Shown: one piece after another, positions 38,195-42,268 of the stretch
Numbering within the stretch: the stretch's first letter is position 1
Layout of the letters: each line of letters begins with the position of its first letter
Source of the DNA: Sphingosinicella flava
GTDB lineage: Bacteria; Pseudomonadota; Alphaproteobacteria; Sphingomonadales; Sphingomonadaceae
Assembly: GCF_016025255.1 (NCBI RefSeq)
Contig: NZ_CP065592.1
Location: 1,407,122 to 1,471,121, forward strand
Length of the DNA stretch: 64,000 nt
Direction of reading: 5' to 3'
The notes under the pieces: generated by a model
Told to the model about the DNA's origin: nothing
The model's input: the letters and a program-made list of their open reading frames with translations, nothing else
The model's database searches: none
Translations under genes and position numbers: made by a program

Positions 38195-38202
38195 TAAATA
38201 AA
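38195..38202. repeat. Target-site duplication, left (TAAATAAA)
   Basis: The eight bases TAAATAAA immediately precede the insertion sequence and are repeated exactly at 42261-42268. Eight-base duplications are characteristic of the IS1595 family. Confidence 0.9.
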
Positions 38203-38224
38203 GGAATTATATACGAAACTAGAC
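38203..38224 (+). repeat. Left terminal inverted repeat (IRL)
   Basis: Reads GGAATTATATACGAAACTAG then AC; it pairs with IRR at 42238-42260 over 22-23 bases with one indel and one mismatch. Confidence 0.88.
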
Positions 38225-38281
38225 AATTCCGCTTGTCCTGCCTGCCGATTTATGGCAGATGATTAGACAGGGAGGGACGGA

Positions 38282-39229
38282 ATGACGAGGAAGGCCCCCG
38301 GAAGAAGTGACCGCGCTGTCACCGTTATTAAACTTTTCCAAATGTTTCCAGATGAGGCGACGAGCCGCAAGTGGCTTGAGAATAATCGCTGGCCGAACGG
38401 TGAGCGTCATTGCCCGCACTGCGGTTCGCTAAAGACTTCGACCGTCCTGAATGAGCGCCCGATGCCCTACCACTGCGGCGAGTGCCGACAGTATTTCAGC
38501 GTTAAGACCGGTACCGTGATGCAGTCGAGCAAGGTTGCGCTGCAAAAGTGGGTCATCGCCATGTACCTGATGTCCAGGAGCCTGAAGGGCGTGTCGAGCA
38601 TGCAGTTCTACCGCGACCTCGGCCTCACCCAGAAGACCGCTTGGCTGCTGGCCCAGAAAGTTCGGCAGGGTTGGATTGATGGCGGCGGCAACCTGGCCGG
38701 TAAAGTGGAGGTTGACGAAACCTACATCGGCGGCAAAGAGCGGAATAAGCACGGGGACGAGCGCCTGAAAGGCGGTAGGGGTGCGGTGGAGAAAGCGGCA
38801 GTGATCGGCGCCAAGGAGCGCAACGGAAAGGTCCGCGCCAGCGTGATCGCGAAGACTAAGACCGCCTCTCTAGACGGCTTCGTTCGGGAGAATGTTGAGC
38901 CGGGCGCGACCGTCTTTACTGATGAGCACAGCGGCTATCGGCACTTCTTCGCGTCATTCACCCACCGTTCCGTCCGGCATGGTGTCGGCGAGTACGTCAA
39001 CGGCATGGCCCACACCAACGGCATTGAGAGCTTCTGGGCGATGCTGAAGCGCGGCTACAAGGGCACCTATCACAAGATGAGCGCGAAGCACCTGTCGCGC
39101 TACGTCGTCGAATTTGCGGGCCGCCACAACTTCCGCGACCTTGACACCCTCGCCCAGATGACGATGCTGGCGAAGGGTCTGGACGGCAAGCGCCTGCGCT
39201 ACAATGATCTGGTTGCCGACCATGGGTAA
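38282..39229 (+). CDS. IS1595-family (ISXO2-like) transposase
   Basis: A 315-aa transposase. The N-terminal zinc ribbon has CPHCGSLK and CGECRQYF (about 43-74); a helix-turn-helix follows; the DDE-type core shows EVDETYIGGKE (first Asp about 150), VFTDEHSGYRH (second Asp) and AHTNGIESFWAMLKRGYKG (Glu-x6-Lys). All catalytic residues are present, so it is probably active. It starts 79 bp inside the left end. Its stop overlaps the start of the methyltransferase gene. Confidence 0.94.
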   Translation: MTRKAPGRSDRAVTVIKLFQMFPDEATSRKWLENNRWPNGERHCPHCGSLKTSTVLNERPMPYHCGECRQYFSVKTGTVMQSSKVALQKWVIAMYLMSRSLKGVSSMQFYRDLGLTQKTAWLLAQKVRQGWIDGGGNLAGKVEVDETYIGGKERNKHGDERLKGGRGAVEKAAVIGAKERNGKVRASVIAKTKTASLDGFVRENVEPGATVFTDEHSGYRHFFASFTHRSVRHGVGEYVNGMAHTNGIESFWAMLKRGYKGTYHKMSAKHLSRYVVEFAGRHNFRDLDTLAQMTMLAKGLDGKRLRYNDLVADHG

Positions 39230-41120
39230 TGAAAGGGTCACAGAGGATTTTGTTCGCGACTGGTTCAAGAATGATCCATTGTTCAGCGCCATCAAGCTGG
39301 ACGAGCAAAAGGCTACGGTCGCGAAGGCGAGAAAGTGTCTGGCGAACGCCTCCAAGAAGATGACCGGCAAGGGTGGCTCGCCCGAGTTCATCATCAGCTT
39401 CCCGGCGCTCCCGGACGACATCATCGTTGTCGAGTGCAAGGCTGACACCAAGTTCCATGCGAGCGACACCGGCGACAATCCTACCGCCTTCGCTGTCGAT
39501 GGCGCGCTGCACTATTCAGCCTTCCTGTCCAAAGAGTACAATGTGGCCTCGATCGCTGTCAGCGGCGATAAGAAGGGCAAGCTCAAGATTTCCAGCTTCT
39601 ACCAGAAAATGGGTGAGGCCGAGGTCAAGGAGATTGAGGCGAAGGAGGGCGTTCCAGAGCTTCTGGACATCTTTTCCTTTATCACACTCTTCAAGGGTGA
39701 GACTCAGGCCCAGAATATTGAATCGGCCGAAATCACCAAGACGGCTATTGAGCTTAACAAGGAGCTGAATGACTATTCGATAGTGGAATATGAGCGCTGC
39801 ACCTTGGTGAGCGCGATCTTGCTTGCCTTGCAGAACGATGCGTTCAAGGCGGGCTACAAAGCCAAGGCCCATAAGGTTCACCCGAAGACGAAAATACCGG
39901 CACCTACGCCCGAGCGATTGGCGGAGTTCATCGTTTCCAGCATCCGGGACGTGCTGAAAGATCACGACATTGACGCTGAACGCGTCGCCTCGATGATTGG
40001 CGAATACGAGAAGATCAGGAACCACTCCATCGCCAAGTCCCCCCGCATCAAGAAGAAGAAGGCGTCGGAGCAGCAGGACAATTATGTCCTTCGGGACATC
40101 ACTGAGCGGCTCCAGAAAACCGTGCTTCCCCTCATCACCTTAGGTGACAAGGGCTATGACGTTTTGGGCCGGTTCTATCGCGAATTTATCCGCTATGCCG
40201 GCACAGATAAAAAGACCGGCTTGGTTCTGACTCCGCAGCACATCACCGAGTTTTTCTGCGATGTGGTAAACCTGAATGTGAACGATGTAGTGTTCGATTC
40301 CTGCTGCGGCAGCGGCGGATTTTTGATCTCCGCCATGAAGCACATGCTGCAGAAGGCCGGGGCCGATCAAAAGAAGAAGCGGGAGATCAAGGAAAACCAG
40401 TTGATCGGTATCGAGAGCCGGACGGACATGTTCACGTTCGCTTGCTCCAACATGATGATGAGCGGCGACGGCAAGTCACATATCTATCAAGGCGATTCTT
40501 TCGCGGACGAGATTGTCGAGGAGGTCCGAACCTTCGAGCCCACCGTGGCCTTCCTGAACCCGCCTTACGACGTCGGTGAGGGTGGCCAGTTGGAGTTCAT
40601 CGAGAACGCGCTCAATTGCCTTCAACCTGGTGGCCGGTGCGCGGCTATCGTGCAGATGAGTTGCGCGACCTCTACTGCACCCCGTACGGTAATCGTGCGC
40701 GACCGGTTGCTCGCCAATCATTCGCTGACCGGCGTGTTTTCAATGCCAGATGACCTGTTCCACCCAGTGGGTGTGATTACCTGCATCATGACGTTTGAGG
40801 CCCATAAGCCTCACCCGTCCGGCTTCAAGACGTTCTTCGGCTACTTCAAGGACGATGGCTTCCGGAAGACGAAGCACATGGGCCGGGTCAATCGGGGCGA
40901 TTGGGATACGATCAAAGTCACCTGGCTGAGCGCCTATTTGAACCGTGAAAGCAAGCCGGGCCTGAGTGTCGTGCGGGCCGTTGCCGGGTCGGACGAATGG
41001 TGCGCGGAAGCCTATATGGAGACCGACTACACCAAGCTCACTCCATCGGATTTCGAGCGGGCAGTCAGAGATTATGCAATCCATAAGCTCTCCGTCGATG
41101 CGCTTGGAGAGTCGGAATGA
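39222..41120 (+). CDS. BcgI-A-like fused restriction endonuclease / N6-adenine methyltransferase
   Basis: A 632-aa R-M subunit. Residues 50-75 carry a PD-(D/E)xK-type nuclease site, SPEFI (Glu55) with VVECKAD (Glu71, Lys73). A helical region leads to a gamma-class N6-adenine methyltransferase: motif I FDSCCGSGGFL (358-368) and motif IV NPPYDV (446-451). Size, order and a following S subunit match type IIB BcgI (A subunit 637 aa by memory). Such enzymes cut both sides of a bipartite site and methylate it. The start at 39222 overlaps the transposase stop; an ATG at 39204 is possible. Confidence 0.85.
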   Translation: MGNERVTEDFVRDWFKNDPLFSAIKLDEQKATVAKARKCLANASKKMTGKGGSPEFIISFPALPDDIIVVECKADTKFHASDTGDNPTAFAVDGALHYSAFLSKEYNVASIAVSGDKKGKLKISSFYQKMGEAEVKEIEAKEGVPELLDIFSFITLFKGETQAQNIESAEITKTAIELNKELNDYSIVEYERCTLVSAILLALQNDAFKAGYKAKAHKVHPKTKIPAPTPERLAEFIVSSIRDVLKDHDIDAERVASMIGEYEKIRNHSIAKSPRIKKKKASEQQDNYVLRDITERLQKTVLPLITLGDKGYDVLGRFYREFIRYAGTDKKTGLVLTPQHITEFFCDVVNLNVNDVVFDSCCGSGGFLISAMKHMLQKAGADQKKKREIKENQLIGIESRTDMFTFACSNMMMSGDGKSHIYQGDSFADEIVEEVRTFEPTVAFLNPPYDVGEGGQLEFIENALNCLQPGGRCAAIVQMSCATSTAPRTVIVRDRLLANHSLTGVFSMPDDLFHPVGVITCIMTFEAHKPHPSGFKTFFGYFKDDGFRKTKHMGRVNRGDWDTIKVTWLSAYLNRESKPGLSVVRAVAGSDEWCAEAYMETDYTKLTPSDFERAVRDYAIHKLSVDALGESE

Positions 41121-42073
41121 CCTGCCTCGTCTCCGACATTTTCGATGTCCGATACGGTCATTCGCTGGAGCTGAACGCCCTAGAGCCAGCGAGCGCTAGC
41201 GAAGGCGTTGCGTTCGTTTCCAGACAAATGGGCAACAATGGCATTTCTGCCTTTGTCGCACCTGTTCCGGATCTTGAGCCAGCGCCGGCTGGCGACATCA
41301 CGTGTGCCCTCGGCGGCAACGGTGTCCTCACAACCTATGTGCAAGAGGCAGAATTCTATTGCGGCCGAGACGTTGCGGTCCTGCGGCCCAAGACCCCGCT
41401 TACGAAGCAGGAAATCATATTCTATTGCATGTGCATCAAGGCGAACCGCTATCGGTTCAACTACGGGCGGCAGGCCAACAAGACACTCTCGAAATTGCTG
41501 GTGCCTTCTGCAGACGAAATCCCGGGGTGGGTGAATAAGGCCAGCTTGGACAAATTCGCTGGGATGAGAGAGGCGTTAGACCCGGCGACCGCTCCGAAAC
41601 TCACCGACCGGAAATGGGCTGAGTTCACCTACAGCGCTCTGTTCGACATTGAGCGCGGCAAGGGACCAAGAAAATCCACCCTGACGGAGAGCGGCTCCAC
41701 GCCCTTCATAACGTCCACCGACAGAAACAACGGTCTGACTGGCTACACGCCTCAGGGCCCGCAACACGCTGGGAACGTAATCACCGTCAATCGAAACGGA
41801 AGTGTGGCGGAGGCTTTCTACCAGCCGTCGCCCTTCGCCACGACGGAAGACGTGCATGTCTTCGTCCCGAAATTTGACCTCAACAAATACACTGCGATGT
41901 TTCTGACGCCCCTGATCCGCATGGAAAAATATCGCTTCAGCTATGGTCGAAAGTGGGGGCTAGCGCGGATGAGGGCGTCACTAATCCGACTCCCCATCAC
42001 TGCGAAGGGCGATCCCGACTGGGCCTTCATGGAGGCCTATATCAAGTCTCTCCCCTACAGTAAGAGCATCTAG
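41117..42073 (+). CDS. BcgI-B-like DNA specificity subunit
   Basis: A 318-aa protein made of two related halves, each ending in a similar motif (KANRYRFNYGRQANKTLSKL at about 112-131 and MEKYRFSYGRKWGLARMRAS at about 273-292). These are the conserved segments following two target-recognition domains, as in type I HsdS and BcgI-B. It would direct the partner to a bipartite sequence. The start overlaps the upstream stop (ATGA), giving coupled synthesis of the two subunits. Confidence 0.82.
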   Translation: MTCLVSDIFDVRYGHSLELNALEPASASEGVAFVSRQMGNNGISAFVAPVPDLEPAPAGDITCALGGNGVLTTYVQEAEFYCGRDVAVLRPKTPLTKQEIIFYCMCIKANRYRFNYGRQANKTLSKLLVPSADEIPGWVNKASLDKFAGMREALDPATAPKLTDRKWAEFTYSALFDIERGKGPRKSTLTESGSTPFITSTDRNNGLTGYTPQGPQHAGNVITVNRNGSVAEAFYQPSPFATTEDVHVFVPKFDLNKYTAMFLTPLIRMEKYRFSYGRKWGLARMRASLIRLPITAKGDPDWAFMEAYIKSLPYSKSI

Positions 42074-42075
42074 CT

Positions 42076-42243
42076 ATGACCGAGAAAACCGTAAACCCAC
42101 GTGGGCGTCCGATCACCAACAAGATCAAACAAATCCCCGCACCCCCAGAGGACATCGCGAAGGCCATTTTCAAGGCGGCGGACAAGGCCATTAACCCAAG
42201 AAGCCCAAGGGAAAGCCGAGGGCCAAGTAGGGTCCGCGTCTAG
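42076..42243 (+). CDS. Short basic passenger protein, probably frameshifted at its end
   Basis: A 55-aa open frame: NPRGRPITNKIKQIPAPPED then IAKAIFKAADKAINPRSP. The GRPI-x-N-K-I...PEDIAKAIF pattern resembles tiny GRP-type proteins seen beside phage and plasmid genes. In the current frame the stop (TAG) lies inside the right inverted repeat, but one frame over the tail would read PKKPKGKPRAK and stop at 42228-42230, before the repeat. A one-base deletion near 42195 therefore looks likely. Function unknown. Confidence 0.55.
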   Translation: MTEKTVNPRGRPITNKIKQIPAPPEDIAKAIFKAADKAINPRSPRESRGPSRVRV

Positions 42244-42260
42244 TTGCGTATATAATTTCC
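42238..42260 (-). repeat. Right terminal inverted repeat (IRR)
   Basis: The last 23 bases of the element, ending ATATAATTTCC, are the inverted counterpart of IRL at 38203-38224. Confidence 0.88.
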
Positions 42261-42268
42261 TAAATAAA
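42261..42268. repeat. Target-site duplication, right (TAAATAAA)
   Basis: Exact copy of 38195-38202, abutting the right end of the insertion sequence. It lies 12 bp before the GNAT start codon. Confidence 0.9.

Follow-up and report, generated by a model that had tools for sequence, protein, structure and literature searches.

Introduction

IS copies that carry passenger genes have been described; on these, the available part of PMC3129680 refers to Siguier (2009), a paper on IS1595. The movement of restriction-modification (R-M) systems between genomes is an old question, and there are reports of R-M genes moving inside insertion sequences and transposons (PMC4176335, in the available part). 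Among R-M enzymes, BcgI, CspCI, NgoAVIII and BsaXI consist of a fused R-M subunit and a specificity subunit (S) with two recognition domains, as set out in the accessible portion of PMC3874165.

Here, a unit at 38203-42260 of the window (the whole stretch of 64,000 nucleotides that was analyzed) was compared with these systems. With IS1595 transporter IS (tIS) it shares an IS1595 transposase, short inverted ends, 8-bp duplications and passenger genes, and with the BcgI-like enzymes a fused R-M subunit and an S with two recognition domains. The unit is most probably a passenger-carrying IS1595 element ('transporter IS') with a BcgI-like type IIB (multimeric type IIG) R-M operon as its cargo.

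Element ends and gene layout

The whole element comprises 4,058 bp (38203-42260). The left terminal inverted repeat, GGAATTATATACGAAACTAGAC (38203..38224, + strand, 22 nt), could be aligned with its counterpart in 7 other copies; the right one (42238..42260, - strand, 23 nt), which reads GGAAATTATATACGCAACTAGAC when reversed, is 1 base longer. Directly outside both ends lies the exact 8-bp target duplication TAAATAAA (38195..38202 and 42261..42268), so that the duplications and inverted ends claimed from the sequence-only reading were confirmed. Duplications of 8 bp are typical for the IS1595 family, and the element has both these and the terminal inverted repeats of that family. Ends were scored by combining an exact 8-nt duplication with an anchored inverted-end score; on this scale the element reached 18, and the top score of 400 random placements in the window was 12 for a 4-kb span and 15 for an 8-kb span. 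The element has a GC content of 0.56, vs. 0.63 for the remainder of the window.

Alignment of 8 left ends revealed a conserved subterminal stretch (38229..38268, + strand), a GCTTG box followed by an A+T-rich box with a partial end repeat (ATTAGACA), which, to judge by its sequence, is likely the operon promoter. Four genes follow in an operon-like run, all on the + strand: the transposase (T), A, S and a gene for a 55-aa protein. The earlier claim of an intact IS1595 transposase, a fused nuclease-methyltransferase, a two-domain S and a short protein was borne out, as all were found between the ends. T (38282..39229) encodes an IS1595-family DDE transposase of 315 aa with a zinc ribbon, as in that family, and matched PF12762 (1.2e-42), PF12760 (7.9e-09) and NF033547 (3.7e-55), all above curated cut-offs. 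Its D, D, E and Cys4 motifs were kept, by eye, in seven unbroken copies including the window. By sequence, the transposase and the ends form one mobile unit, and A and S are passenger genes between the ends that are unrelated to transposition. The T and A frames overlap by 8 nt, those of A and S by 4 nt, and the small gene begins 2 nt past the S stop. A single promoter just inside the left end would transcribe every gene of the element, and translation of A may be coupled to that of the transposase.

Restriction-modification genes

Gene A (39222..41120, + strand) encodes 632 aa from the ATG at 39222, which by homology is most likely the start, not 39204. Its product matched N6_Mtase of Pfam (1.1e-28) and REase_MTase_IIG of PADLOC (4e-103), and at sequence level it is a PD-(D/E)XK-like nuclease and an N6-adenine methyltransferase fused in one polypeptide, with a separate S (41117..42073, + strand, 318 aa) that has two target-recognition domains. 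S matched Methylase_S in two stretches and PADLOC Specificity_II (2.4e-45). The A residues P54, E71, K73, D359 and NPPY (446-449; numbering from ATG 39222) were invariant in 37 aligned A proteins, and P54, E71 and K73 belong to the nuclease part. An AlphaFold model of A (mean pLDDT 89.2) had type I M subunits as its best fold matches, followed by BsaXI (type IIB) and by BpuSI and DrdV (type IIG) over 645-728 columns; against full-length type IIB/IIG enzymes, query TM-scores were ~0.4 and rmsd 13-20 Å. The comparison of predicted folds supports the methylase core of A and barely addresses the domain arrangement. The type IIB assignment put forward earlier was thus partly supported: protein families, residues and gene layout point to a BcgI-like type IIB R-M system, and the fold is consistent with it, though a poor guide to how the domains are arranged.

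Median pN/pS was 0.18 for T, 0.20 for A, 0.36 for S and 0.30 for the small gene, rough values at a median pS of 0.73-0.81, near saturation. Pairwise identity among copies was 42-84% for S, 74-85% for T and 68-90% for A. The higher variability of S is as expected if specificity changes, and would suit a protective or epigenetic cargo, in which A and S mainly methylate (shielding the element from host restriction or altering host expression) and the nuclease is negligible; restriction fits this variability too. Two related elements, L056 and L041, also favor such a cargo, as the cargo family scan found no nuclease family beside their methyltransferases. P54, E71 and K73 are invariant in 37 sequences, however, and pN/pS of A is low, and a cargo of this kind is improbable.

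An addiction module, as the sequence-only reading had suggested, is likewise unlikely. In such a module, loss of the element would leave the nuclease behind and kill cells as methylation dilutes, and the element would be kept. A and S look intact, some R-M systems have been described in these terms and mobile elements are reported to bear R-M genes (PMC4176335, in the available part). In BcgI-like enzymes, however, nuclease and methylase are one polypeptide, and according to the accessible portion of PMC3874165 both subunits are needed for cleavage and for methylation; with a shared complex both activities would be lost together, which disfavors addiction. By analogy with these enzymes, addiction through this enzyme type would be unlikely. 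Under the preferred reading, a transporter IS with a type IIB operon, A2S complexes would methylate a bipartite site in host DNA and cleave incoming DNA that lacks the modification. BcgI-like type IIB systems have a 2RM:1S stoichiometry and cleave to both sides of such a site.

Copies of the element

Relatives of A were sought with a six-sequence A alignment in genome_contigs (84,980 species), from which the best 80 of at least 540 relatives were kept, and in viral contigs, which gave 20 loci; the total of 100 loci was searched for transposase. A transposase on the same strand and no more than 2 kb upstream of A was found at 11 of the 86 loci with >1 kb of upstream sequence (best 80 of at least 540, plus 20 viral). 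In this same set, it was present at 7 of 8 loci with an A identity of 65% or more, 1 of 21 at 45-65% and 3 of 57 below. Three distant IS1595 transposases upstream of A (L107, Rickettsiales; L165 and L174, Bacteroidota) were left out of the copy count.

Seven further contigs share the left end and contain the cassette, either complete or truncated at a contig boundary (T 74-82% and A 69-79% identical to the window). Gene order was that of the window as far as each contig reaches, with S and the small gene after A in six of the seven, L182 being the exception. A search for other copies with different 8-bp duplications had been proposed, and such copies were found: duplications were exact in a Sphingomonas MAG (L101, TTTTTTTA), in a member of the Rhizobiales (L103, the same as G582; CTTTTTTT) and in Sphingorhabdus (L106, AAAAAAAG), and had one mismatch in Stagnimonas (L104, TTTTTGTG/TTTTTGTT), where the transposase is frameshifted. 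One IMG/VR contig (L181) has good ends with no matching duplication, and another (L182) is cut inside A, so that the right end is missing. The right end is also missing from a contig of 4,012 bp that was assigned to Obscuribacter, perhaps by a binning error (L102), and that starts two bases inside the end. In L159, another type IIB element, 26 nt of the ends match and the duplications differ at one position, and the exact-duplication scan gave a weak 13-point pair. A solo right end, preceded by an apparent small-gene tail, was seen in an IMG/VR contig that was found by a pattern scan of viral contigs (L210:11195-11218), with no transposase in the 14 kb examined.

At E values up to 1e-20, A was found in only one of 26 genomes of the genus, namely that of the window. 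Close relatives with these genes at the locus but free of the IS ends had been named as evidence against the cargo reading, and A is absent from the other 25 genomes. In the one relative whose flanks were examined (G172), the flanking genes are in the same order with no element between them, and the gene nearest the site differs. In a phylum sample, A was found at E up to 1e-60 in 7 of 398 genomes; besides the window, a close transposase lay beside A only in G582, and L262 has a distant transposase on the other strand (~1.5 kb of upstream sequence per locus). No plasmid matched the whole element in a near-identity search. The best relative of A was 40% identical in plasmids and 32% in phages among the matches listed. 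By annotation and transposase search, no IS1595 gene or transposase was found in five plasmid neighborhoods (H1, H2, H3, H6 and H8, which are not simply the five best plasmid matches) or in one unannotated phage record.

In Methylobacterium (L105), A (67%) and S (38%) were found with neither transposase nor end, and A/S genes therefore occur outside the element too. This is the evidence that resident R-M genes might merely be located between inverted repeats by chance. Against it, the unit is found at unrelated loci with the same ends, 0 of 400 random placements reach its end score, and no other genome among the 26 of the genus has A; chance framing is extremely improbable. The earlier proposal that the R-M system travels as transposon cargo held up, as the unit recurs with different duplications and other R-M genes are paired with IS1595 elements. 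Transposition may carry the element to chromosomes and other replicons, and the selective benefit would be host defense. The copies with their own duplications, and four near-identical copies of a related element in one genome (G692, below), lend indirect support to transposition activity. Identity of T and of A was weakly correlated (r = 0.21 over 15 pairs of six copies), which gives little ground for simple co-descent of the two and with which exchange between elements would agree. This weak correlation counts against the transporter IS reading, as do the missing duplication in L181, the frameshift in L104, the A and S genes standing alone in L105, the low TM-scores and the presence of a single element copy in the window's genome.

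Cargo of related IS1595 elements

An order-level transposase search supplied 60 of 86 other places (the 58 best, plus G245 and G128, chosen for adjoining A-like genes) and a class-level search 29 places, apart from the window and G582; five loci found through A and the window itself brought the set scanned for ends to 95 stretches. Ends with exact 8-bp duplications were found in 73 of them. The end-score cut-off of 11 admits chance pairs (33 and 56 of 400 random placements), and 8 of the 73 elements, with scores under 16, are uncertain. The remaining 65 scored above every random placement and measured 1,822 to 4,260 bp; all 65 exceed the length that a transposase gene requires, and extra DNA is therefore the rule in this sample. 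Target duplications of IS1595 elements (L101 and L103 included) were 74.5% A+T vs. 37.8% in the flanks. A terminator-like hairpin with a T-run adjoined 11 of 72 elements vs. 34 of 2,906 random sites, on the left side in 10 of the 11.

Cargo was scanned for frames of 170 aa or more, with known A/S and duplicate copies set aside. Other R-M genes were found to occupy the same position as A/S in related elements: a D12 methyltransferase with a NotI-type REase (1e-39; L231), a C5 methyltransferase with a GIY-YIG protein (L235), an N6_N4 methyltransferase with PADLOC REase_II (3.3e-84; L240-L243, genome G692), methyltransferase-HNH fusions (L237, L249 and L250) and a type IIB system with KilA-N (L159). 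Methyltransferase genes were also seen in L056 (N6, 807 aa; L055, for which no ends were found, has a like gene), L090 (D12) and L041 (N6_N4). Cargo other than R-M included P63C, BRO-N, DUF3800, SocA-like and EamA proteins, and many frames had no family. In L251 (5656-6474), the cargo matches PADLOC UzuA with a GIY-YIG domain, at an end score of 15, inside the random range. The four IS1595 copies in G692 are identical over 2,746 bp, and exact duplications flank two of them. The remaining two share a swapped flank, the 8 nt to the left of one being the same as the 8 nt to the right of its partner, a pattern that recombination would leave.

Elements were searched for a same-strand frame of 100 aa or more with its start between 60 nt before and 150 nt after the transposase stop. 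This rule, which favors long frames, picked out a frame in 34 of 73 elements, and in 25 of these the start lies no later than +3. Among 15 elements with R-M or methyltransferase cargo, the first frame starts at or before +3 in 12; L231 starts at +7 and L249 at +12, and L090 is without such a frame. The first frame after the transposase is another gene in L041, L159, L237 and L250. Cargo may be expressed from the transposase promoter.

In a transposase tree of 75 rows, built by a quick method, a group with a support of 99 unites the window and the six other unbroken type IIB rows; it lies within a 25-row group (support 98). R-M or methyltransferase cargo was carried by 17 of 75 rows, 13 of 25 within the 25-row group and 4 of 50 outside, with 9 changes of state. 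With the six rows found only via A removed, the counts were 8 of 20 in the window's clade vs. 3 of 49 outside (8 changes of state; Fisher P = 0.0014, ignoring relatedness), where the 8 include the window as the starting case and the 3 include L056, picked for its A-like gene, which works against the contrast. R-M or methyltransferase cargo has been gained or lost repeatedly among IS1595 elements.

A broader reading, which we hold tentatively as a real possibility somewhat short of probable, is that one IS1595 clade is a specialized R-M delivery platform. It would have a translationally coupled slot in which R-M or defense genes were swapped many times, a conserved small regulator often near the right end, and a habit of inserting into A+T runs, including some terminator tails, that limits host harm. 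As part of the same tentative reading, the swapped genes would be type IIB systems, methyltransferase-HNH fusions, NotI-type and C5-GIY-YIG systems and other methyltransferase-REase pairs.

Small protein

The 55-aa protein (42076..42243, + strand) has RGRP and PEDIAKAIF motifs; no family was found for it in Pfam, NCBIfam or PADLOC. RGRP is the core of AT-hook motifs. In the window, the tail of the protein (42190-42243) reads unlike all six other complete copies, and a small indel is possible. A motif built on this protein and two of its relatives was found in 9 of 73 IS1595 elements and 0 times in 907 kb of flanks, a count that leans towards elements, since some of the sequences behind the motif were among those scanned. 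An ATPE-x-(V/I/L)-A-x-A-like motif was seen in small proteins near the right end in L229, L235, L236, L238, L246 and the type IIB elements.

That the 55-aa protein is an R-M subunit was considered and rejected: relatives occur in IS1595 elements with other cargo (L229, L236, L238 and L246), and one lies beside another R-M type (L235). As relatives accompany other IS1595 cargo, the protein is not evidently part of the R-M system. It may instead regulate the element, by binding the end or the promoter, rather than act in restriction.

Comparison with known systems

IS1595 passenger genes and R-M genes on transposons are known kinds. What is new is that IS1595 elements have been paired with R-M systems repeatedly, of which no description was found in the titles, abstracts and papers searched, a literature in which coverage of subscription papers is thin. 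Antiviral systems may travel among genomes on IS1595 elements of this kind, and a compact element with a whole R-M operon is a direct, testable vehicle. The transposases also mark cargo slots in which unrecognized defense genes may sit, and offer a search handle for them.

Unlike the described tIS, the window element has a multi-gene R-M operon as its passenger, with the first frame overlapping the transposase, and R-M or methyltransferase cargo recurs across several lineages of related elements. Unlike in BcgI-like systems, A and S are encoded within an insertion sequence, the likeness being one of described layout. R-M systems are also carried by plasmids, prophages, integrons, ICEs and transposons, whereas here one transposase family repeatedly encloses unrelated R-M types.
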